NCBI RefSeq assembly: GCF_013402795.1 | Contig: NZ_CP058595.1 | Span: 2,265,848-2,329,847, forward strand | Origin: Costertonia aggregata | GTDB lineage: Bacteria > Bacteroidota > Bacteroidia > Flavobacteriales > Flavobacteriaceae | Direction: 5' to 3' | DNA length: 64,000 nucleotides | In this document: positions 22,889-38,189 of the stretch, in pieces | Layout: the number at the start of each line of letters is the position of its first letter | Numbering within the stretch: the stretch's first letter is position 1 | Translations under genes and position numbers: made by a program | Notes under the pieces: generated by a model | What the model was told of the DNA's origin: nothing | Database searches by the model: none | Seen by the model: only the letters and a program-made list of their open reading frames with translations

Positions 22889-23731
22889 ATGGGTAGGTCA
22901 GATTCAGGAAACGGTAATAAAAAGTCTGGAAGACAGGGCGGTAATTTTAGGAAGAAAAGTTACGCCAGAGGCAATGCGCCCATTAAAAAAAACACAGAGC
23001 CCCAAAAACCTTCCGACCCTAATGTCATACGCCTAAATAGGTATGTTGCCAATTCGGGTGTGTGTTCCCGAAGAGAAGCTGATATTTATATTGCGGCCGG
23101 TAACGTTACCGTAAACGGTAAACCGATAACCGAAATGGGCTATAAAGTAAAACTTACCGATGACGTTCGTTTTGATGGTCGCAGGTTGAACCCTGTAAAA
23201 AAGGAGTACGTTGTATTGAACAAACCTAAAGATTTTGTCACCACTACCAGGGACGAACGAGGCAGAAGAACCGTTATGGGCCTTATCTCCAACGCTTCCA
23301 AATCCGAACTGGTACCCGTAGACAAATTGGATAAGGATACCACGGGTCTACTCTTGTTTACCAATGATGGCGAACTCTCCCAGCGTTTGAAGAGCCCTAA
23401 AAACGGACTAAGGAAAATATATCATATTGAGTTGAGCAAGCCCTTGCGTAGCGCAGACTTAAAAAAAATACAGGAAGGTATAGCGGTAGATGAAAAAGTA
23501 GTGCGTGTACAAGAAATAAGCTTTGTGGACAATGCCCCAAAAAATCAAGTGGGTATGGAGATTTTCAGTTCTAGAAACAATATCGTAAAACGAATTTTTG
23601 AAGAACTGGAATATGAAATCGTAAAACTGGATCGTGTTATTTATGCTGGCCTTACCAAAAAAGATTTGCCCCGTGGCCATTGGCGGTATTTGACCGAGCA
23701 GGAGGTCATTAATCTAGGTATGATAAAATAA
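22889..23731 (+). CDS. RsuA/RluB family pseudouridine synthase
   Basis: 280 residues. A basic, Gly/Lys/Asn-rich tail (about 1-45) precedes an S4 RNA-binding domain (IRLNRYVANSGVCSRREAD, about 47-110) and the pseudouridine synthase domain. The catalytic Asp is in VDKLDKDTTGLLLFTNDGEL. It would isomerise a uridine in 23S or 16S rRNA. The extended basic N-terminus is common in Bacteroidota members. It is convergent with the PorP/SprF gene. Confidence 0.94.
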   Translation: MGRSDSGNGNKKSGRQGGNFRKKSYARGNAPIKKNTEPQKPSDPNVIRLNRYVANSGVCSRREADIYIAAGNVTVNGKPITEMGYKVKLTDDVRFDGRRLNPVKKEYVVLNKPKDFVTTTRDERGRRTVMGLISNASKSELVPVDKLDKDTTGLLLFTNDGELSQRLKSPKNGLRKIYHIELSKPLRSADLKKIQEGIAVDEKVVRVQEISFVDNAPKNQVGMEIFSSRNNIVKRIFEELEYEIVKLDRVIYAGLTKKDLPRGHWRYLTEQEVINLGMIK

Positions 23732-23786: not shown

Positions 23787-24719
23787 CTAATCCAAGGCAT
23801 ACCCATCACCGAATTTATAGCTGAGCACCAAACCATGTATATTTCCTAAAGGACTATCTTTTAAGGCGAGGTTGTATTGATATATAAAACGAAGGTTGTT
23901 GAACAAATATATGCCCGCCAAAAGGTTTACCGAAGAGCTGGTACGGTATCCCGTTCCCAGTTCAAACTTGTTCCTGAAACTAAAGGATAGATTTATATCG
24001 GCCTGCAAAGGTGCGCCGTTCTCATACTTAAGTAGCAGGTTCGGCTTGATCATGATATCTTGAAAACGATTGTTGAAAAACCGATAACCAAAATAACCAT
24101 AGATAGGATTCCTCAGGTTAAGATCTTGTTCCGATGCCAACCTGTCCCCCAATACGTTCGGGGCCGATACACCAACATAAAACCGCGAATGGTTGAACAG
24201 AAAGCCAAGGCCTACGGTGGGTATGGTGGCACTTATATTTTCACTGAATCGTGGATCATCGGTTATACCAAGGTCGAGCAAATTATCTTGATACAGTTGT
24301 ACACCGGCAGTAATCCCAAAGGAAAGTACTCCAGGGCTATATATTTGCCAGTACGGTCTGTCGTCCTTAAAATCAAAAAATATTTTATAGGAATATGCCC
24401 CGAACACGCTAGTAGATTTTGTTACACCTATTTCATCGGATATTATACCTGCGCCAACACCTACTTTACCTCTGTTCAAAGGGCTGTTAAAACTAAATGC
24501 GAAACTCTTTGGGCTACCCTCTACGGTATTCAAGAACCCAGAATTGCTCAAAGTAGCCTCGGTATTCGGCATCAACCCGGCATAAGCTGAATTAATGATA
24601 AACGGATTGTAATTATATTCCGAGAACGCAGGGGTTTGTTGTGCCATGACCATACTGCCGTTCAAAAGGCACATAATGGCCAAGGCAACCAATGCCTTGG
24701 GACTGTTTTTTAAAATCAT
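23787..24719 (-). CDS. PorP/SprF family type IX secretion membrane protein
   Basis: 310 residues with a signal peptide (about 1-26, ending MAQQ). The mature start TPAFSEYNYNPFIINSAYAGL is diagnostic of the PorP/SprF family, an outer-membrane barrel that works with T9SS type B substrates. The sequence is beta-rich with alternating aromatic residues and ends LVLSYKFGDGYALD. It begins 4 bases after the stop of the giant surface protein, so the two are co-transcribed. The likely job is to carry or hold that protein on the cell surface, as SprF does for SprB (family knowledge plus inference). Confidence 0.93.
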   Translation of the reverse strand: MILKNSPKALVALAIMCLLNGSMVMAQQTPAFSEYNYNPFIINSAYAGLMPNTEATLSNSGFLNTVEGSPKSFAFSFNSPLNRGKVGVGAGIISDEIGVTKSTSVFGAYSYKIFFDFKDDRPYWQIYSPGVLSFGITAGVQLYQDNLLDLGITDDPRFSENISATIPTVGLGFLFNHSRFYVGVSAPNVLGDRLASEQDLNLRNPIYGYFGYRFFNNRFQDIMIKPNLLLKYENGAPLQADINLSFSFRNKFELGTGYRTSSSVNLLAGIYLFNNLRFIYQYNLALKDSPLGNIHGLVLSYKFGDGYALD

Positions 24720-24723
24720 AGTA

Positions 24724-27700
24724 TTAACGCTTTATTACCAAAAACCCTTCTGTTTTCCTAAGAATGGTCTCGCCTTCGATTTGAATGTTAAAAAAGTATG
24801 TCCCTTCCGGTAGCCTACCTGCACCCATTTTGGTTTTGAGATTGGCATCTCCTTGAAAGACTTGTGAATCGTTATCATAATTTTCAATACTGAAAACCGC
24901 ATCGCCCCATCTGTTATAGATAGTAACAACATTTTCAGGGTAGTATTGAATATTTTCTATATGCCAATATTCATTGATGCCATCGCCATCGGGAGAAAAA
25001 CCGTATTTGGTTTCGTCTTCGGGGATTATTGTTGTAAACGATTGTTCAACGCACTGCTGTGCATCACCGACGCTGTTATATGGGGTCACCGTAACATAGA
25101 TCAATGTGTCAAAAGGAAATTCCCCACCATGTATGTAGCTGGTCTCAAGCCCCATGTCCCTATTGTCAAGAATATCTGTTCCTAAGGGGGTTGTTCCTAT
25201 CGATAGGCGATAACCATCGGTCTTTTCAACTTCTTCCCAGCTTATGCTCGTATCTAGTGCTACCTCGGTTTCCCCATTTACGGGGTTTGACAAAATAGTG
25301 CATTCCGGTGCGATGATTTCTGTCTCAAAACTTTCAAAAGTACATCCAACCGCATCTCCGGAAGTGTTGTAAGGTATTACGGTTACATAAATCATCGTTT
25401 CCGAAGGTAAGCTCTCAGCAAATACGTAATTCGTTAAGGATGCAACATCTTCGTTGTCTACGATATCGGTTCCGTTAGGTGTGGTACCTACCGATAATCT
25501 ATACCCATCTGCGTGTGATGAGGCATTCCATGAAATGTCGGTAGCTACATTTATTTGGGTCGCGTTATTCAACGGGGCCAATAAGGTTGTGCATGTAGGT
25601 AAAGGTCTAATCGTAAAACTTTCCGAAGTACATCCAATAGCATCACCAACTTCGTTATATGGGGTTATGGTTACGGTAACAACTTCGCCTTCATCAAAAT
25701 TACTGGGGAAGTTGTATGAGGTATTGGTAGTATCAAAATCGGTTATGTTATTCAATGTCGTATTACTTGCGGATACGGTGATTTTATAGCCATCGGCATC
25801 GGTTATACCATTCCAACTAATACTATTTGTAGTCGCAATCACGTCTCCGTTCAAAGGTGCTATCAAGTTGGTACAGGAAGGAACCGCTTTTATAGTGAAA
25901 CTTTCTGAGCTACATCCAAAAGCATTTCCTGCATCGTTGTAAGGTACTATGCTAACCGTTACGGTCTCACCTTGTTCAAAATCATTTGAAAAATTGTAAG
26001 AAGTTCCTATAGTGACATCTACATCGGTCATAGTATTGACCGTGCTGTTACTGGCCGTTACGGTCAACCTGTAGCCATTTGCGCCAGTAATCTGAGTCCA
26101 TTCAATATCACTGTCCACAGCGATATCGGTAGAACCATTTAGTGGCAAGGTTAAGCTTGTACAGTCAGGCACGGATTCAATGGTAAAGCTTTCGGTATTA
26201 CAACCTATTGCGTCTCCCACTTCATTGTAAGGTACTATAGTTACCGATACAGTTTCACCTTGTCTAAAATCGGTAGGGAAATCGTAAGTGTTTCCAGTAG
26301 TGATATCAAGGTTTGATACGTTGTTGGCCGAACTGTCACTGCCCAAAACCGTTATTCTATAACCGGTTGCGTCGGGAATGGGTGTCCATGCCAAATCGGT
26401 GTCCAAGGCTATATTGGTACTGGCGTTCGTCGGTAATGTCAAGCTGGTACAAGTTGGTACCGGTTTTATGGTAAAACGCTCTGAGATACATCCTATAGCT
26501 TCGCCCACTGCGTTATAGGGCACTATGGTTACTTGTACGGTTTCGCCCTGTTCAAAATTATTGGAAAAATCATAGCTATTCCCACTTGTAATGTCAAGGT
26601 TGGTAAGATTATTTGCAGTGCTGCTACTTGCCAGTACGCTTAGCCTGTAACCTGTTGCATTAGCACTTGGAACCCATTCGATATTTGTATCCACGGCTAC
26701 ATCTACAGATCCATCTGCAGGAGTCGCCAATGCGGTACATAAGGGCAGTGGAGGTGGTATTGTGGTAAAACTTTCCGAAGTACAGGCTGTTGCATCACCC
26801 ATGTCGTTATAAGGCGTAATAGTTACCGTAATCGTTTCTCCCCTATTAAAATCATCGGGAAAGGTATAGTCTGTGGCTGTTGTTACATCAACGTCGGTTA
26901 GGTTGTTCGCTGCCACACTGCTACCTGAAACGGTTAACCTATAACCGTCGGCATTGGTACTGGGAGCCCATTCTATTGTCGTATTGACCGGAACATCCGT
27001 AGCTCCGTTTATAGGCGATACCAATGTGGTACATTCTGGTGGGCCGTCGGTCATGAAGGTTTGTTCGGTACATCCTGTAGAATCACCGTTTACGTTGTAA
27101 GCCGTGATATTTACAAATATCATAGTGCCTTCGGGAAGATCATCGGTTAAATCATAAGTGGTTATATCGCCTATATCCCCCGTAAATATTTCCGTACCGC
27201 CGCTTGTGGTACCTACGGTTAAACGATAACCATCTGCCGAACTAGAACCGTTCCAACTTAAATTGGTATCCAAAGGGACGGCCGTTGCATTATCGGCAGG
27301 TGTAGCCAATAAAACACAGGATGGGGGACTAGTCGAATTTCCAGTAGTAAAAGTCTCTTCTACACACCCTGTAGCGTCCCCTTCGTCATTATAAGGTATA
27401 ATAGTCACGTAGTGTAACCTATCTTCTTGAAGGTCATTGGTAATGTCATAAGTTGTATTAGGGCCTACATCAATATTATTGGCCACTTCTATACCACCTG
27501 ACGTCGTACCCACTACAACTAAATACCCAGTAGCGTTAGGCACGGCCGTCCAGCTCAAATTGGTATCTATAGGCACATCGGTTTCGTTATTTGCCGGGCT
27601 TATCAAACCAGAACAAACAGGAGGAACTGGAATAAGTTCGGTAGTAAAGCTTTCCTCTCTACATCCTGTAGCATCCCCTTCATCATTATAGGGAATAATT

Positions 27701-30700
27701 GTTACAAAAATAGCTGTGTCTTCAGGGAGGTCTACACCAAATTCATAGGTGGTATTATTACCCACATCTTCGTCATCTACAAGCTCGTTTCCTCCTGCGG
27801 TCGTTCCTACGGTTATTCTATATCCGTCAGCATTTGAAATCGGGTCCCAACTTAAATCCGTAGTAACCGCAACATCGTCGTCATCGTTGGTGGGAGACAA
27901 TAAATTGGTGCAATTTGGTATTGTGGCCGGATTACTTGAAATCGTAAAACTCTCCTCGGTACATGGCCCTACTGCATCGCCTTCGTCATTGAAGGGAATC
28001 AATGTCACATAAACTATGTCACCTGTGTCGAAATCAGATGTAAATTCATATGAAGTTTCATTATTGATAGTTTCGTTATCCACTATGTCATTTCCACCGG
28101 GACTGGTTCCTACCGTCAAACGATACCCTCTTGCATACAAAGCTGGTTCCCAGGTAATGTTGGTATTTACCGGTATATCGGTATCGCCATTCAAGGGTGA
28201 TGTCAATATAGTACATTCTGGAATGGGACAATCTCTTATATCCCCATCAAAAGTCCAACCAAAATTATCGATCATTGATTGTCTTTCTTCTTCTGCATCG
28301 CAATAGGGCAAACCAGTAGCCCCCAATGTAATACCATTGGTCAAGGTTTGTTCTGACCAGGCAATCAAGGTATTGTCATAGTTTTCTCTCGTCAAGGCAG
28401 TGTTACCGAGCATGGCATTCATGTTCGATACACCGCTTACATCCCAATCCCCGAAATATTGGTTTAAAGAAGTGGCGTTAAAAAAAGCTGCGGCCATAGT
28501 CACATCTCCCAAATTCCATAAGTCCATAGGCTGATTATAAGCTATGGCCTCATTGAACATACGATCCATGTTAGTAACATTTGCTACTCGCCAGTTATTG
28601 ATATCTTGATTAAAACTTACAGCATCTTTAAACATTTCTCTCATGGTCGTAACCGCTCTAACATTCCAAGCCCCTATTTCTCCGTTAAATGCCGTCGCTC
28701 CATCAAACATATCTTCCATAGTGGTTACAGAGGCTACGTTCCAAGAATTAAGAGACTGGTTAAAAGTTGTAGCGTCTTCAAACATACTTTTCATAGTTGT
28801 CACAAAAGACGTGTTCCAAGAGTCGATGGGTCGATTGAATGCGGTAGCACCTCTAAACATTTCTTCCATATTAAGCGCTTCACCGGTATTCCAGCTCTGA
28901 AGAGGCTGGTCAAATACAAGTGCTTCTCTGAACATACCTGCCATATTTGTTACAGAGGCAACGTTCCAAGTATTTATATCTCTATTAAATATGGCTGCTC
29001 CATCAAACATAAATGGCATAAGTGTTACTGATGACACCTCCCAAGAATCAAGTGGCTGGTCAAATACAAGCGCACCACTGAACATAGATGACATATTGGC
29101 TACTGCACTTACATCCCAGCTGTCTAAAGGTTGATTAAAAGTTTCAGCACTATCGAACATAGAAGACATATTTACCACAGAGTTTACATCCCAAAGGTGC
29201 ATAGGTTGGTTATAGGCCAAAGCCCTTCTGAACATTCTAAACATGTTAAGCACATTGGTCACCTCCCAACCATTGATATTTTGATTAAATACAGTGGCAG
29301 ACTGAAACATACTGGACATGTTTGTGACCGTCGTAACGTTCCATTGGTCCATTGGTTGATTATACGAAGACGCACCTGAGAACATAGATGCCATACTAGT
29401 TACTTTGTCTACATCCCAATCGTTTAAGTTTTGATTAAATGCTGCTGCCGAGTTGAACATGCTACTCATATTGATTACCTCATCCACGTCCCACTGGTCT
29501 AGTGGCTGGTCAAAAGAACTGGCAGATGAGAACATATTGGTCATGTTGGTTACATTGTCCACATCCCAATCATTCAAAGGTTGATTAAAGGAAGATGCCG
29601 CATTGAACATATAGCTCATATCGGTCACATTTAGTACGTCCCATGCATTTAGGGGTTGGTCAAATGAAGTAGCGGCATAGAACATACTATACATGTTTTC
29701 AACGTTACCGACATTCCACGTTCCGATGGGTTGGTTAAAAGCTGAAGCGGAATTGAACATCTGTGCCATAGAAGTTACATTAGATACGTTCCATGAATCC
29801 ATAGGTTGATTGTAGATTGATGCCTGATAGAACATATTGCTCATATTTTCAACATTACTAACGTCCCAATTGTTAATGTTTCCATTGGAATTGTAGGTGC
29901 GGCGAAACATACTTTGCATAGTCGTTACTTGAGACAAGTCTGGAACATCCGCTGCATTATATACCATGTTTTCGCAGAAATAAAAGGTATTTCTCATACT
30001 CTTCCATACGTAGGTACCCCACTGATCTACGGATAAAAGCTTTAAGTTGTCGCGACCGGATGAACCATAATAATGAGCAGGATAGTCTCCAATTATAGAT
30101 ACTGTATATATACCTGGAGAAGGATAAGTATGGGTGATTTCATTGGTTACATTATTGTCAAATTGGTCGTCTCCCCAGTCTACAGAATAATTATAGTCAT
30201 TTCTATAATTCGTATTATGTTCTAATCTAAGTTGGTTTATTCCTGATGAGTTTCTATCCAAATTTCTTGTGTCTATTGTAAATTTGAATGCATCGGGACT
30301 ATTGACCCATGATGGGACTACGGTAAATGTTTCCGCAGTACATCCCGTTGCACGGCCATCAGTATCATTATAGGGCACAACTGTTACAGATACTTCATCA
30401 CCGGATTGTAATAGATCATTACCGACACCGTCTTCTAGGTCTAAACCTGTCGTACTTCCGCCAGCGACTTGTATATCATTAAACGGGGTAGACGTTGAAC
30501 CTCCTCGTGTAATTACTACTGTAACATAATAGCCCGTGGCACCGGGAGTCTGTGCCCACGTTAAGTTAGCACTTGCAGGTACATTCGTATCTCCATCAAT
30601 GGGTGATATTAAATTGGTACAGAGTACAAACGAACAATTCACAATATCACCGGTAATGTTCCAGCTAGAGTCGTCTATAAGGTCCTGCCTTTCATCCAGT

Positions 30701-32394
30701 GCATCGCAATAGTTAAGACTTGTTGCGCCTAGATTAACATTGTCTCTAACCGTTTGCCCAGCCCAGCCGATTAGGGTATTGTCGTAGTTTGACTGTGATA
30801 AACCCGAATTGGAAAGCATATTGGCCATACTCGTCACACCGCTTATGTTCCAAGAGCCTAAATCAAGGTTAAAGGCAGTGGCATTTTGGAACATGCCCGC
30901 CATGTTCGTGGCCGAATCAGTTATCCAATTACTGATATCCTGATTAAATAGCGTAGCGTTTTGAAATATGTTGCTGAAGTTTGCAACTTGGCTTACATCC
31001 CAACTATCTAGCGGCTGATTAAATTGTCTGGCACCGCTGAACATGCCGGACATATTGGTTATTGCAGTGGGTGTCCAAGTATTTATAGGTTGATTGAATG
31101 CTTGGGCGTCTCTGAACATGTTGCTCATGTTTTCTACCTTGTCTACATTCCAACCCGTAATATCTTGATTGAACACTGTAGCCTTTTCGAACATACCGCT
31201 CATGTTGGCGACTTCATCAACGACCCAAAGATTTAGAGGTTGGTCAAAGGCCGGACAATCTCTAAACATATTGCCCATATCTTCTACTTTACTTACATCC
31301 CAATCATTAAGCGGTTGATTAAATATCATTGCCACAAAAAAACCATCGAACATACCGTTCATGTTGATGACATTGCTTACATCCCAATCATTAAGTGGTT
31401 GATTAAAACTTGTGGCCCTATGGAACATTTGGGACATATCGGTTACGGCGTTAACCGTCCAATTGTTAATGTTTTGATTGAATCGACTGTATTGGGAGAA
31501 CATGCCGGACATATTGGTCACATTGGCAACACTCCAATTGTCCAAGGGTAAATTGTATGCGCTGCCCTCGAACATATTTGACATATCAGTTACATTATCT
31601 ACACGCCAGTTGTTCAGTGGTTGATTAAAGTTGCTAGTGTATCGAAACGTGCTACTCATATTTTGCACGTTCAGCGTATTCCAATTACTTATATTTTGAT
31701 TAAAGCTACCTGCGCTACTGAACATGCCGCTCATATCGACAACATTATCAACTCTCCAATTGTCTAACGGCTCATTGAAAAGCCTAGCACCTAAAAAGGT
31801 TTCTGACATATTGGTAACGGCGTTGGTTGTCCATGAATCGAGTGGTCTGTTGAAAATAACCGCATCCGCAAAAAGTCCTGACATGTTTTCGATACTATTA
31901 ACGTCCCAATTATTCACGATACCATTAAACGATGTACAGCCTCTGAACATACTTTCCAGTGTTGTCACATTGGACAGGTCTGGTGAATCTATGGCATCAA
32001 AATTCAGATTTGTACAACCGTAGAATGCATTTTCCATGGTTTGCCACTGAATGGTGCCCCATTGTAGAATTTCCTCGATTTTTAATTTATCATTGGCTTC
32101 CTCATCATTGAAATAGATAGCAGGAAAATCCCCACTTATTGAGATGGTATACGTACCAGGACCGGACAGGTAGGTATGTGTGATATTACCGGTGACTCCT
32201 GTGTCCGAGGTTCCGTCACCCCAGTCGACATCGTAGTTGTATGTTGTAAAGGCCGGGTTTGTAGGGATGGTTACCTGATTTGTTGCAGATGAGCCTGTTT
32301 CAACATTAACGGTATTCCAAATAGCCGTAAAATCCTGACCATAGTTGATAACGGTACACAAAAATGCAAGCGATAAAAATAACTTTTTAAGCAT
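24724..32394 (-). CDS. giant BspA/DUF285-repeat surface protein with T9SS type B sorting domain
   Basis: 2,556 residues. Order of parts: signal peptide (about 1-20), a PKD-like domain (about 40-95, YDVDWGDGTSD), a first array of about 15 BspA-type 25-residue repeats (about 141-545), a fibronectin-like domain (about 585-695), a second PKD-like domain (about 720-790, YSVDWGDDQFD), a second array of about 20 repeats (about 811-1361), eleven tandem fibronectin-III-like domains (about 1383-2461), and the gliding-motility-associated C-terminal domain (KYGFSPDGDGINEYWHIENI onward). The repeat consensus is NMSSMFxxAxxFNQPLxxWD. Such proteins are exported by T9SS and act as adhesins or in gliding. It pairs with the PorP/SprF gene downstream. 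Confidence 0.93.
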   Translation of the reverse strand: MLKKLFLSLAFLCTVINYGQDFTAIWNTVNVETGSSATNQVTIPTNPAFTTYNYDVDWGDGTSDTGVTGNITHTYLSGPGTYTISISGDFPAIYFNDEEANDKLKIEEILQWGTIQWQTMENAFYGCTNLNFDAIDSPDLSNVTTLESMFRGCTSFNGIVNNWDVNSIENMSGLFADAVIFNRPLDSWTTNAVTNMSETFLGARLFNEPLDNWRVDNVVDMSGMFSSAGSFNQNISNWNTLNVQNMSSTFRYTSNFNQPLNNWRVDNVTDMSNMFEGSAYNLPLDNWSVANVTNMSGMFSQYSRFNQNINNWTVNAVTDMSQMFHRATSFNQPLNDWDVSNVINMNGMFDGFFVAMIFNQPLNDWDVSKVEDMGNMFRDCPAFDQPLNLWVVDEVANMSGMFEKATVFNQDITGWNVDKVENMSNMFRDAQAFNQPINTWTPTAITNMSGMFSGARQFNQPLDSWDVSQVANFSNIFQNATLFNQDISNWITDSATNMAGMFQNATAFNLDLGSWNISGVTSMANMLSNSGLSQSNYDNTLIGWAGQTVRDNVNLGATSLNYCDALDERQDLIDDSSWNITGDIVNCSFVLCTNLISPIDGDTNVPASANLTWAQTPGATGYYVTVVITRGGSTSTPFNDIQVAGGSTTGLDLEDGVGNDLLQSGDEVSVTVVPYNDTDGRATGCTAETFTVVPSWVNSPDAFKFTIDTRNLDRNSSGINQLRLEHNTNYRNDYNYSVDWGDDQFDNNVTNEITHTYPSPGIYTVSIIGDYPAHYYGSSGRDNLKLLSVDQWGTYVWKSMRNTFYFCENMVYNAADVPDLSQVTTMQSMFRRTYNSNGNINNWDVSNVENMSNMFYQASIYNQPMDSWNVSNVTSMAQMFNSASAFNQPIGTWNVGNVENMYSMFYAATSFDQPLNAWDVLNVTDMSYMFNAASSFNQPLNDWDVDNVTNMTNMFSSASSFDQPLDQWDVDEVINMSSMFNSAAAFNQNLNDWDVDKVTSMASMFSGASSYNQPMDQWNVTTVTNMSSMFQSATVFNQNINGWEVTNVLNMFRMFRRALAYNQPMHLWDVNSVVNMSSMFDSAETFNQPLDSWDVSAVANMSSMFSGALVFDQPLDSWEVSSVTLMPFMFDGAAIFNRDINTWNVASVTNMAGMFREALVFDQPLQSWNTGEALNMEEMFRGATAFNRPIDSWNTSFVTTMKSMFEDATTFNQSLNSWNVASVTTMEDMFDGATAFNGEIGAWNVRAVTTMREMFKDAVSFNQDINNWRVANVTNMDRMFNEAIAYNQPMDLWNLGDVTMAAAFFNATSLNQYFGDWDVSGVSNMNAMLGNTALTRENYDNTLIAWSEQTLTNGITLGATGLPYCDAEEERQSMIDNFGWTFDGDIRDCPIPECTILTSPLNGDTDIPVNTNITWEPALYARGYRLTVGTSPGGNDIVDNETINNETSYEFTSDFDTGDIVYVTLIPFNDEGDAVGPCTEESFTISSNPATIPNCTNLLSPTNDDDDVAVTTDLSWDPISNADGYRITVGTTAGGNELVDDEDVGNNTTYEFGVDLPEDTAIFVTIIPYNDEGDATGCREESFTTELIPVPPVCSGLISPANNETDVPIDTNLSWTAVPNATGYLVVVGTTSGGIEVANNIDVGPNTTYDITNDLQEDRLHYVTIIPYNDEGDATGCVEETFTTGNSTSPPSCVLLATPADNATAVPLDTNLSWNGSSSADGYRLTVGTTSGGTEIFTGDIGDITTYDLTDDLPEGTMIFVNITAYNVNGDSTGCTEQTFMTDGPPECTTLVSPINGATDVPVNTTIEWAPSTNADGYRLTVSGSSVAANNLTDVDVTTATDYTFPDDFNRGETITVTITPYNDMGDATACTSESFTTIPPPLPLCTALATPADGSVDVAVDTNIEWVPSANATGYRLSVLASSSTANNLTNLDITSGNSYDFSNNFEQGETVQVTIVPYNAVGEAIGCISERFTIKPVPTCTSLTLPTNASTNIALDTDLAWTPIPDATGYRITVLGSDSSANNVSNLDITTGNTYDFPTDFRQGETVSVTIVPYNEVGDAIGCNTESFTIESVPDCTSLTLPLNGSTDIAVDSDIEWTQITGANGYRLTVTASNSTVNTMTDVDVTIGTSYNFSNDFEQGETVTVSIVPYNDAGNAFGCSSESFTIKAVPSCTNLIAPLNGDVIATTNSISWNGITDADGYKITVSASNTTLNNITDFDTTNTSYNFPSNFDEGEVVTVTITPYNEVGDAIGCTSESFTIRPLPTCTTLLAPLNNATQINVATDISWNASSHADGYRLSVGTTPNGTDIVDNEDVASLTNYVFAESLPSETMIYVTVIPYNTSGDAVGCTFESFETEIIAPECTILSNPVNGETEVALDTSISWEEVEKTDGYRLSIGTTPLGTDILDNRDMGLETSYIHGGEFPFDTLIYVTVTPYNSVGDAQQCVEQSFTTIIPEDETKYGFSPDGDGINEYWHIENIQYYPENVVTIYNRWGDAVFSIENYDNDSQVFQGDANLKTKMGAGRLPEGTYFFNIQIEGETILRKTEGFLVIKR
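25030..28240 (-). repeat. eleven tandem fibronectin-III-like domain repeats (within the giant protein)
   Basis: Each unit is about 95 residues (roughly 285 bases). It opens with Pro-x-Cys-x-x-Leu, continues with TDVPVDTNLSW and ADGYRLTVGTTSGG-like segments, then VTIIPYNDEGDATGC and ESFTT. Units differ enough for stable recognition but share long similar stretches at the DNA level. They form a rigid stalk between the repeat arrays and the sorting domain. Confidence 0.85.
28390..29955 (-). repeat. second BspA/DUF285 array, about 20 repeats of 75 bases
   Basis: Near-perfect 25-residue periodicity with the core MFxxAxxFNQPLDxWDVSxVT. The array ends in a capping unit (NTALTRENYDNTLIAWSEQT) that closely resembles the cap of the first array, which suggests duplication of a whole array-plus-cap module. 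Confidence 0.88.
30780..31970 (-). repeat. first BspA/DUF285 array, about 15 repeats of 75 bases
   Basis: The same 25-residue unit as the second array, with one unit longer by three residues (GMFDGFFVAMIFNQPL, near 31340). It closes with the cap SGLSQSNYDNTLIGWAGQT. One unit (EGSAYNLPLDNW) is one residue short. Confidence 0.87.
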
Positions 32395-32629: not shown

Positions 32630-34231
32630 TTATTGAGTAAGATTTTTCCTATATTCTGAAGGGGTCTTGCCCGTGTGGTTCTTAAAAATTCTGTTGAAAG
32701 AAGTCTTGCTTTTAAAACCGGAATCAAAAGCGATAGCTAAAAGTTTGGAATCTTTATGACTTTTAGATCGCATTAATTTTTGTGCTTCAAGCACTTTGTA
32801 CGAATTAATAAAGTTATAGAAGTTTTGGTCAAATCCGGAATTTAGCACTTCAGATAAATGATAGCTGCTCATTCCTAATTGCGAAGCAAGCTCGGATTGT
32901 GAAAGTTCACTGTTCAGGTATGGTTTGTTCGCTTTGGTAAATTGTATCAAACACTCTTTATATTCCTCAAGAAGATCTTTGGTCAGAGATGAATTTTTAT
33001 AGGAAGAAGTGGTTTCGGGATTTAATGATCGGTACTCACTTTTCTTAGTGTTGTTATTTTCAAGCACATTGTTTTTGCCCAAGCCGATAAATTGATGTTG
33101 AATTTTCTCTTGCGTCCTACGGATTCTTCTTTGGTACAAATAGAAAAGTAAACACGTTACAAAAAGTATGGCCGTTAAAACGAGCGACCTAACGATCCAT
33201 GTATTGTTGTTGTTTTTTAAACGGGATATGATATTGTTTTTATCGGTCAGGTCCTTTTCAAGGTCTAGCCTTACCGCTCTATCTTTTACTTTTAATGTAT
33301 TGTTTTTTAGCGAAAGATATGTTCTTTCCGCTTCCGATGCTTTTTCTACCTCATTCTGTAATAGGTATGCTTCGCCGAGAAATTTTTGGCAGAACAGCTC
33401 TATTTCCGGAAGTTTTTTATCAATGGCGATTGCATTAGCTTCTTCCAATTGGGCAACTGCTAGGGCAATATTGTTCAACTTTATGTTAGCGGCTCCTATA
33501 TGGAGTAATGCGGATGCCTTTTCGGAAATATTTTCCCTTGTATATTCTAGTTCCAGGGCTTTGTTACCGGTACTTACGGCTTCTTGATAATTTTTTTGGT
33601 AGTATTTGATTTCGCTGATATTGTTTAGTGCGGTAGCGATTATGCGTTCGTTCTTAATTTCCTCGCCTAATTCTTTAGAGCGCATCAAATATTCTAAAGC
33701 CTTGTCCATATTACCAAGCCCATCATAACTATTGGAAAGTCCGTTAAGGGCTGCCGCCTCTATTTTTGGGTTTTTCTCATGTTTTTCCAAAAGCTCCAAT
33801 ACATTTTCCAGGGTTTGTATGGCCTTGGGGTGTGCCTCAATATCTACATAGATGTTTCCCAAGTTTACCAGAATGATAATTTTTGTTCTGTAATCTTCTG
33901 GAATGGCCTTGGTAAGTTCAAGTGCTTCTCTATATAAGGTCAAGGATTTGTCTTGTTTGCCACGGTTTTTATAATATACCGCTTGATTTACCCTTCCCAA
34001 TATTTGAAATTTGACCAGTCCGTTTTCTTTTGCTAGCGCATATAAAGAATCACTATAGGCTTTGTGTTCGTCATATTCCCCGTTATGATATACGTTTGTT
34101 AATTTTTGTACATAGTATGTTGCTTGTTTTTCTGCAACGGAATCTGTTTTGGGTATTGACTTTTCAAGTTCTTGTGAAGTTGACTTAAAATTGGCGAAGA
34201 CCAATAGAACAAAAACAATGCAATACTTCAT
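32630..34231 (-). CDS. TPR-repeat membrane-anchored AraC-type regulator
   Basis: 533 residues from the ATG at 34231; an in-frame ATG 14 codons upstream would precede the signal sequence and is rejected. Order: signal peptide (about 1-19, KSTSQ), TPR-like repeats (about 30-320; ALEYLMRSKELGEEIKNERI, AVSTGNKALELEY), a membrane helix (about 358-378, WIVRSLVLTAILFVTCLLFY), then a cytoplasmic AraC HTH at the C-terminus (LSQSELASQLGMSSYHLSEV and SGFKSKTSFNRIFKNHTGKTPSEYRK, quoted in parts). This is a one-protein signalling design common in Bacteroidota. Being next to the giant surface gene, it may regulate it (inference). Confidence 0.92.
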   Translation of the reverse strand: MKYCIVFVLLVFANFKSTSQELEKSIPKTDSVAEKQATYYVQKLTNVYHNGEYDEHKAYSDSLYALAKENGLVKFQILGRVNQAVYYKNRGKQDKSLTLYREALELTKAIPEDYRTKIIILVNLGNIYVDIEAHPKAIQTLENVLELLEKHEKNPKIEAAALNGLSNSYDGLGNMDKALEYLMRSKELGEEIKNERIIATALNNISEIKYYQKNYQEAVSTGNKALELEYTRENISEKASALLHIGAANIKLNNIALAVAQLEEANAIAIDKKLPEIELFCQKFLGEAYLLQNEVEKASEAERTYLSLKNNTLKVKDRAVRLDLEKDLTDKNNIISRLKNNNNTWIVRSLVLTAILFVTCLLFYLYQRRIRRTQEKIQHQFIGLGKNNVLENNNTKKSEYRSLNPETTSSYKNSSLTKDLLEEYKECLIQFTKANKPYLNSELSQSELASQLGMSSYHLSEVLNSGFDQNFYNFINSYKVLEAQKLMRSKSHKDSKLLAIAFDSGFKSKTSFNRIFKNHTGKTPSEYRKNLTQ

Positions 34232-34280
34232 AAGGGGAATGTTTAGTGCATAACTAAAATAGACAAAAGACAAAATACTG

Positions 34281-36908: not shown

Positions 36909-38189
36909 TTAAGATAGCTTGCTCATCTTCTCTCGAATCTCTTTCAAACACAAATTGTCCAAACTACCTTCATGGGTGTGTTTGATTTTTCGTTTGGGGG
37001 TGAAGTTGCCTGCCTGAATTTCCTGCCCCATTTGTTTGTAGGCATCACGAAAAGGCATACCGTTCTGAACGAGTTCGTTCAGAGTGTCCACACTGAATAA
37101 ATAGTCATATTTGGGGTCTTCAATGATGTTTTCGTTGACACGGATTTCTTTTAGACTAAAGGTCAAAATCTCCAAACAAGCTTTCATATCTTGAATCGCA
37201 GGCACGATGATTTCCTTGACCAATTGCAAATCACGATGATAGCCACTGGGAAGGTTATTGATCACCAAAGTCAATTGATTGGGAATGGATTGCAGTTTGT
37301 TGCATTTGCCCCTGACCAATTCAAAAACATCGGGGTTTTTCTTATGCGGCATGATACTGGAACCTGTAGTCAATTCATCGGGAAAGGATATGAAATCGAA
37401 ATTCTGGCTCATATACAAACAGATATCCATGGCCATTTTTGATATTGTAGCGGCGATATTGGCCATTCCGAAAGCCGTAGCTTTTTCGACTTTGCCTCGA
37501 CTCATTTGCGCGGCAACCACGTTGTATTTCATAGTCTCGAAACCCATATCTTGAGTAGTGAACCTTCTGTCGATGGGGAAGGAACTTCCATAACCCGCCG
37601 CACTGCCCAATGGGTTTTGGTCCGCGATTCTGTAAGCGGCTTCAATGAAATACAAGTCATCGATCAAACTTTCAGCATAAGCTGAAAACCATAATCCGAA
37701 AGAAGATGGCATTGCGATTTGTAAATGGGTATAGCCTGGTAATAAGACTCTTTTATGCTTATCCGCCAAGTTCAATAATAAATCAAAAAGGGTTTTGGTC
37801 TGAGTTTTAATCTCGGAGAGCTCATCTTTTAAATACAAATGCATGGCGACCAAAACTTGGTCGTTTCGAGAGCGCGCCGTATGGATTTTTTTACCTGTAT
37901 CGCCCAGGGCCACGGTCAATTGAAATTCTATTTTGGAGTGCATATCTTCAAAATTATCTTCAATTGTAAAAGAACCCTCTTCGATTTTTGTGGCGATTTT
38001 ATCTAATTCCGTAACTAGGTCATTTGTCTCTTTTTTCGACAATAACCCAATTTTGCCCAACATTTTGGCATGGGCTTTGGATGCGATCACATCATATTTT
38101 GCCAGGTGTAAATCAAGTTCACGGTCATTACCTACGGTGAAATGGTCTATTTTTTTATCGGTACTAAAGCCTTTGTCCCAAAGTTTCAT
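36909..38189 (-). CDS. argH: argininosuccinate lyase
   Basis: 426 residues. Last enzyme of arginine synthesis: argininosuccinate to arginine and fumarate. The fumarase/lyase superfamily signature TTGSSIMPHKKNPDVFELVRG is at about residue 270, with the catalytic serine in the SS pair. Other expected segments are HTARSRNDQV, LPGYTHLQIAMP and NPLGSAAGYG. It is the final gene of the arginine operon and is separated from argE by 75 bases containing a stem-loop. Confidence 0.96.
   Translation of the reverse strand: MKLWDKGFSTDKKIDHFTVGNDRELDLHLAKYDVIASKAHAKMLGKIGLLSKKETNDLVTELDKIATKIEEGSFTIEDNFEDMHSKIEFQLTVALGDTGKKIHTARSRNDQVLVAMHLYLKDELSEIKTQTKTLFDLLLNLADKHKRVLLPGYTHLQIAMPSSFGLWFSAYAESLIDDLYFIEAAYRIADQNPLGSAAGYGSSFPIDRRFTTQDMGFETMKYNVVAAQMSRGKVEKATAFGMANIAATISKMAMDICLYMSQNFDFISFPDELTTGSSIMPHKKNPDVFELVRGKCNKLQSIPNQLTLVINNLPSGYHRDLQLVKEIIVPAIQDMKACLEILTFSLKEIRVNENIIEDPKYDYLFSVDTLNELVQNGMPFRDAYKQMGQEIQAGNFTPKRKIKHTHEGSLDNLCLKEIREKMSKLS

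Follow-up and report, generated by a model that had tools for sequence, protein, structure and literature searches.

Two predicted LRR-like repeat arrays on a type B T9SS stalk: a flavobacterial surface-protein locus with near-constant unit number and, in relatives, mosaic alleles and replaced heads

Tandem 25-residue repeats in which W, V, V, M, MF and FN positions are conserved have been described under the name PARCEL (DUF285/PF03382, TIGR02167), which the original account proposes to be a palindromic coding element in Mycoplasma and other organisms; its arrays consist of tandem, unique units, many of them occur in membrane-targeted or surface proteins, and flavobacteria are already listed among its hosts (PMC2996958). 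A different set of relevant systems is that of SprB/SprF and the type B CTD–PorP/SprF pairs, in which a very large cargo adjoins a PorP/SprF gene and PorP-like proteins are reported to serve type B tails (PMC9143113, PMC12618676). BspA and the internalins resemble the protein described here in its predicted LRR-like fold, and the mosaic surface-antigen loci of pathogens, such as opa and spa, are similar in that alleles are exchanged between lineages at a surface-protein locus.

The locus that we analyze lies in a window of 64,000 nucleotides from Costertonia aggregata (NZ_CP058595.1, positions 2,265,848 to 2,329,847), between genes which we take to be argH and rluB. It differs from PARCEL in having two arrays of near-fixed length, a syntenic position, a type B T9SS tail and a PorP partner, and whereas the PARCEL repeats were predicted in 2010 to form amphipathic helices, the window arrays are predicted to be LRR-like (PMC2996958). 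Unlike in SprB/SprF, the head would be a two-array LRR-like solenoid, and the likeness is not meant to suggest a part in gliding. The repeat is also a sequence family separate from those of BspA and the internalins, although an alternative head found at the locus resembles internalin J below the cut-off. In contrast to opa and spa, the exchange at this locus concerns environmental marine flavobacteria, runs across genera and extends to replacement of the entire head. Among the matches listed from the open-licence literature, there is no publication on an argH–porP–rluB surface-protein locus.

The gene is a single open reading frame on the minus strand, as the earlier note on this DNA had it (Table 1). 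Its product matches DUF285 in Pfam with 1015.9 bits (cut-off 25) and TIGR02167 in NCBIfam with 120.2 bits (cut-off 30), and both NCBIfam matches, TIGR02167 and NF045896, are labelled PARCEL repeat. The original estimate of about 15 and 20 units holds exactly for the 25-residue units that begin with W, and rises to 17 and 21 if the degenerate ends are included; all units are unique, with no two identical in either array. Pfam also detects two PKD_4 stretches and a weak fn3 signal under its cut-off, and a profile built from the protein itself recovers the fn3-like domains, so that the fibronectin-like and PKD-like domains linking the arrays and the stalk of 11 domains are all borne out. The type B sorting domain is likewise upheld by CHU_C (68.8 bits against 27) and TIGR04131 (41.6 against 35), both above curated cut-offs, as is the PorP/SprF partner on the same strand by TIGR03519 (192.6 against 90.55) and PF11751 (157 against 22.3). 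A putative N-terminal signal peptide, as expected of a T9SS type B cargo, looks typical by eye.

Table 1. Features of the surface-protein locus (positions within the window)
Feature	Position	Strand	Basis
T9SS type B surface protein gene, 2,556 aa	24724..32394	-	ORF list and profile matches
Signal peptide, residues 1-19	32338..32394	-	judged by eye
PKD-like domain 1 and N-terminal cap, residues 20-111	32062..32337	-	Pfam and model
Array 1, 17 DUF285/TIGR02167 25-residue units, residues 112-539	30778..32061	-	profiles and unit count
C-terminal helical cap 1	30628..30777	-	model and cap comparison
fn3-like domain joining the arrays	30325..30627	-	own profile; Pfam fn3 below cut-off
PKD-like domain 2 and N-terminal cap	29944..30324	-	Pfam and model
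Array 2, 21 units, residues 818-1341	28372..29943	-	profiles, unit count and model
C-terminal helical cap 2	28222..28371	-	model and cap comparison
Stalk, 11 fn3-like domains	25012..28221	-	profile built from own protein
Type B T9SS C-terminal sorting domain (CHU_C/TIGR04131)	24727..25011	-	Pfam and NCBIfam
PorP/SprF-family outer-membrane partner, 4 bases downstream of the surface gene	23787..24719	-	Pfam and NCBIfam
Upstream gene of TPR-AraC type, a possible regulator	32630..34273	-	Pfam and locus comparison
argH-like gene, conserved upstream landmark	36909..38189	-	locus comparison
rluB-like pseudouridine synthase gene, conserved downstream landmark	22889..23731	+	locus comparison

A PKD domain precedes each array and an fn3-like domain succeeds it. 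The internal duplication proposed earlier as array, cap and fn3-like domain is genuine, and it is found in all two-array relatives, but the N-terminal PKD domain, which had been omitted, belongs to the duplicated module as well (the two copies are 47% identical in amino acids in the window protein). The two C-terminal caps, which had been called near-identical, have only 30 of 58 residues (52%) in common and are 59% identical in DNA. Across 24 proteins the caps within one protein are on average 50% alike, against 67% and 82% for orthologous caps; together with the occurrence of the module in all two-array relatives, this indicates that the duplication is old.

AlphaFold2 models of the segment from PKD1 through array 1 and fn3 to PKD2 (mean pLDDT 89.4) and of that from PKD2 through array 2 and its cap to fn3 (86.6) both display a helical cap and, in each turn of 25 residues, one or two short strands. 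With the array-2 model, VIA-align finds mainly LRR proteins (best Z 20.1, rmsd 5.6, 468 residues), including a Leptospira LRR protein at Z 18.8 (rmsd 4.5, 376 residues). Foldseek alone gave no match in the PDB for the array-1 model at E ≤ 0.001, and a sequence search for solved structures of relatives returned none that was convincing, the best (E 0.83) being unrelated. The array fold is predicted to be LRR-like. At E ≤ 0.1 Pfam reports no LRR family in the window protein, LRR_5 (PF13306) included, which we take to be the profile of BspA proper. In public records these repeats bear the label ‘BspA family leucine-rich repeat surface protein’, and the earlier designation as BspA-type follows this usage; it agrees with the public name and the predicted fold, though not with the Pfam matches. 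A fold search with an array model also gave strong matches to predicted protein structures of Aeromonas phage D3, Aureococcus anophagefferens virus and Megaviridae—the repeat family is used by viruses as well.

In many relatives the surface gene sits between the argH-like and rluB-like genes, and in all 29 complete type B genes a PorP gene lies directly downstream, at a distance of 1–73 bp that is mostly 4. Two relatives (L091 and L092) carry the same two-array head on another stalk with HYR domains and end in a type A tail (TIGR04183, cut-off 23: L092 lies above it with 36.3 and L091 just below with 19.8). No PorP match was found near either within the fetched 20 kb, which fits the role published for PorP in connection with type B tails (PMC9143113, PMC12618676). 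The window genome itself has nine PorP/SprF genes, a gene for SprA, and 13 type B tails, of which 12 exceed the cut-off. Across 19 loci PorP co-varies with the CTD with a Spearman coefficient of 0.82, against 0.22 for array 1, and across 29 loci the values are 0.55 for the CTD, 0.70 for the distal stalk and 0.43 for array 1; this co-variation is confounded with physical linkage, could be plain linkage and is no proof of pairing.

The histories of the arrays conflict with that of their neighbors. A tree of four flanking genes from 19 loci unites the four Zobellia species with a support of 99.9, a grouping rejected by AU tests in array 1 (p 5.9e-7), array 2 (p 2e-60) and PorP (p 3e-5). Both arrays also reject four further flank clades (eight of eight AU tests, p 0.026 to 3e-63), and in PorP two of these hold and two are rejected. 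One of the four is the clade that the window forms with M. algarum and another locus (L046) in the flank tree; its p values are 4e-4 in array 1 and 3.5e-7 in array 2, and PorP rejects it weakly (p 0.019).

In relatives, these conflicts are accompanied by abrupt changes of divergence within the gene. Between Z. barbeyronii and Z. uliginosa, array 1 has a dS of 1.0 (71% amino acid identity), against 0.026 in the PKD domain before it and 0.13 in the region after it. M. caenipelagi and M. vaceletii have a dS of at least 1.5 in the compared flanks and PorP, but dS drops to 0.03–0.3 over a large part of array 1 and in the last part of array 2, with a longest exact run of 145 nt in the gene against at most 39 nt in the compared neighbors. 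The flanks of Z. russellii and Maribacter 2-618 are saturated, yet the two have low-dS stalk windows in common, and their longest exact run measures 170 nt in the gene and no more than 29 nt in the compared neighbors. Over 181 pairs with saturated flanks (flank median dS of at least 1, two Zobellia sister pairs being left out), dS falls below 0.3 in 47 of 7155 windows in the gene against 2 of 3840 in the flanks, and the low-dS windows are confined to 16 of the pairs. Among the six pairs checked for exact runs, Z. barbeyronii and M. zhoushanensis have none of 40 nt, so their kinship in array 1 is old. Segment exchange is thus clear in relatives; for the window gene, in which no recent transfer is seen, the support is tree conflict on long branches. 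The control for mosaicism consists of the flanking genes only, so that the excess is one over the neighbors and not over the genome at large.

Whole heads have also been replaced at this fixed locus in relatives. A Maribacter MAG (L050) has argH, the surface gene, porP, rluB, ubiA and mvaK in the same order, with an LRR head in place of the two arrays, an 11-domain stalk and a type B tail; its stalk and tail are 61% identical to those of M. caenipelagi over 1,172 columns and its signal peptide resembles that of the same species. This head resembles internalin J (NCBIfam, 70.7 bits, below cut-off), and Pfam gave no LRR family for it at E ≤ 0.01. A PorP-based search of two genera matched 8 of 8 genomes in the first and 20 of 36 in the second, which contains the MAG (the other 16 gave no match at 1e-70); 27 of the 28 matched loci were examined, the last being a fragment. 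The eight loci of the first genus comprise six two-array heads, one of them cut at the 5' end, and two LRR heads. The second has 12 complete two-array heads, two truncated contigs with array units, one array-type gene with a broken frame, three LRR heads (two 99% alike, the third in the MAG) and one head that is beta-helix-like by eye. The last (L113, genome G229) is N-terminal, followed by three fn3-like domains and DUF285 modules of 9 and 4 units, at the same locus and with the same PorP as the two-array genes.

LRR heads whose stalk, CTD and PorP are of the two-array kind therefore occupy 5 of the 27 loci, in both genera. Between the genera these heads are 50–56% identical with saturated dS, implying either old head types or exchange in the distant past. 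In the second genus, the tail and PorP of the LRR-head genes resemble those of their own genus (CTD 84–93%). The picture is less clear in the first, where the CTD identity of 64–68% is no higher than across genera and argues against a plain replacement of the head in a gene that is native in its other parts. Natural chimaeras of this kind could reveal which parts of a type B protein its PorP/SprF partner reads.

From these data we consider it probable that the gene encodes a T9SS type B protein with a PorP-held stalk and an LRR-like binding head, diversified by exchange of segments or of the whole head while its unit count is kept near-constant. The protein would be exported via Sec and the T9SS, and the neighboring PorP/SprF protein would anchor it at the outer membrane, with the two predicted LRR-like solenoid arrays forming a head carried by a long stalk of fn3-like domains. 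Most likely this head binds an extracellular target, which may be a glycan (algal or not), a different cell or some surface. Diversification would proceed by homologous exchange of head segments or whole heads between species at a fixed chromosomal locus, with the unit count staying near-constant, presumably because it sets the geometry of the head, and stalk length being freer. Of this, the anatomy, the near-constant count, the synteny, the PorP pairing and, in relatives, the mosaic alleles and head replacement are shown; we infer that the protein is exported and anchored, that it binds a ligand and that diversity is selected. One qualification of the exchange reading is that the arrays do shift by one or two units, array 2 having 20 units beside an array 1 of 17 in five loci. 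In Z. galactanivorans, T9SS and SprF-family genes are reported to be induced on macroalgae (PMC9296495). The names of several host species point to algae.

A bolder proposal, which we regard as tentative and rather doubtful, is that argH–porP–rluB is a trans-genus polymorphic recognition locus at which heads and segments are swapped on a native T9SS stalk-and-anchor, so that specificity spreads horizontally. If so, the exchangeable heads would be of the two-array DUF285, LRR and beta-helix-like types, the anchor would remain native, and the spreading specificity could concern an algal host, a partner cell or evasion of phages. Variation in the number of repeats is the usual assumption for genes of repeat proteins; at this locus, the count is nearly locked over genera, while head sequence recombines and whole heads swap on a conserved anchor, making the argH–rluB locus a concrete test case for how environmental bacteria gain new surface specificities.

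The head could instead be a non-essential spacer that tolerates recombination and replacement without selection for binding variety, an explanation to which we give a minor share of the probability. Consistent with it, no region in five close pairs reaches a dN/dS of 0.6, apart from a CTD remnant of four codons that borders an assembly gap in the Algibacter pair, and no pervasive positive selection is hence seen; positive selection was rejected, since this dismissed remnant is the only region with dN/dS >1. The unit positions that vary most between orthologs (10, 11, 14, 15, 17 and 18) also look solvent-facing, as tolerance would have it. Yet at these variable positions, units 10–18 of array 2 have an ortholog identity of 0.46–0.60, well above the non-orthologous level of 0.22 for all units pooled, which with the conserved unit count implies constraint, and the excess of shared low-dS windows far exceeds that in the flanking genes. 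On the preferred reading of a diversified binding head, the variable positions of array 2 units 10–18 form a candidate binding face.

The earlier note had proposed that recombination among near-identical 75-base repeats expands and shrinks the arrays and so varies the adhesive surface, a reading that we find very improbable. The units are not near-identical in the window: their mean DNA identity is 0.46 in array 1, 0.51 in array 2 and 0.48 between arrays, with a best pair of 0.71, adjacent units are 0.32–0.63 identical, the longest exact repeat within the gene is 21 nt, and the window yields no array with Tandem Repeats Finder. One relative, Flavivirga aquimarina, has a unit pair at 92% DNA identity, which favors resizing, as do the differences of one or two units between lineages. 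Against this, the best unit pair reaches 0.9 in 1 of 36 orthologs, and all 45 complete two-array relatives have 16–18 units in array 1 and 20–23 in array 2: 17/21 in 29, 17/20 in five, 18/20 in four, 16/22 in three, and 17/22 and 16/23 in two each. An invariant repeat number was to have counted against resizing, and what we find is close to it, the remaining loci lying within one or two units per array of 17+21. Repeat expansion is rejected as the main source of variation, given the low unit identity, the lack of Tandem Repeats Finder arrays and the nearly fixed counts between species and genera. The earlier observations are thus partly confirmed and their interpretation is partly supported.

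These 45 are a non-redundant set of 36 that includes the window (17/21 in 24, 18/20 in four, 16/22 in three, 17/22 and 16/23 in two each, 17/20 in one) and nine added from two genera; sampling is one genome per species, and the comparisons are between species and genera. Left out of the counts were contig-truncated genes (L034, L053/L085/L012, L055, L104, L109, L112), duplicates of other rows (L095, L096, L099, L101, L103, L105, L108, L116, L120), a distant relative with 12+20 units (L100), a broken frame in a draft genome (L121), single-array, small or other proteins (L059, L061–L063, L086–L088, L090), the beta-helix-like head with its 9+4 units (L113) and the LRR heads (L050/L117, L102, L106, L123, L124); L064–L068 were left out of all analysis. 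The order of units is conserved too: over 20 relatives and 38 units, the unit at the same position is best or tied-best in 385 of 760 comparisons (chance 1/38), with a mean identity of about 0.58 against 0.39 at other positions. Per-unit alignments gave no consistent position for the extra or missing units of Flavivirga. The unit total is 38 in 31 of the 36 despite splits of 16/22, 17/21 and 18/20, with few independent changes, and there is possibly a constraint on this total.

By parsimony on a tree of the 36 (total length 13.7 changes per site, built partly from the arrays themselves), array 1 changed its count twice and array 2 seven times; for the 29 members of the set whose type B stalk is complete, the changes are 2, 6 and, in the stalk, 14. 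The stalk has 7–14 domains across relatives, and equal-length segments of at least 90% DNA identity occur in the stalks of 6 of 36 (L084, L033, L036, L037, L043, L044), against array units in 1 of 36. Hence, the stalk rather than the arrays is the more length-variable part. One of these six, Algibacter amylolyticus (L043), has an assembly gap inside the protein, and the contigs or N runs of several relatives break within the stalk; with the pairs of at least 90% identity, this suggests that stalk length may be recombining and hard to assemble.

That the arrays were imported and moved as palindromic DNA units of a PARCEL-type mobile coding element is the least credible reading: the 25-residue family is the same and its wider occurrence is patchy, including plasmids, phages and giant viruses, but in many relatives the locus is syntenic from the argH-like to the rluB-like gene, the units keep their order and number, and inverted repeats (arms of at least 7) are not in excess in the window arrays, with 4 in each against 4.6 and 4.5 in synonymous shuffles, in a test that differs from the motif method of the original PARCEL work. 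Of four relatives run alongside the window, Aquimarina algicola has a nominal inverted-repeat excess in array 1 (reached by 10 of 300 shuffles).

A 430-residue ORF with six units (L086, G000:C1:1315546-1316319), with no sorting domain seen at its C-terminus, is the only other DUF285 gene found in the window genome. Homologs of the TPR-AraC-type regulator lie upstream in 8 of the 36 two-array loci, the window included, and one is also found beside a shorter DUF285 protein (L088).
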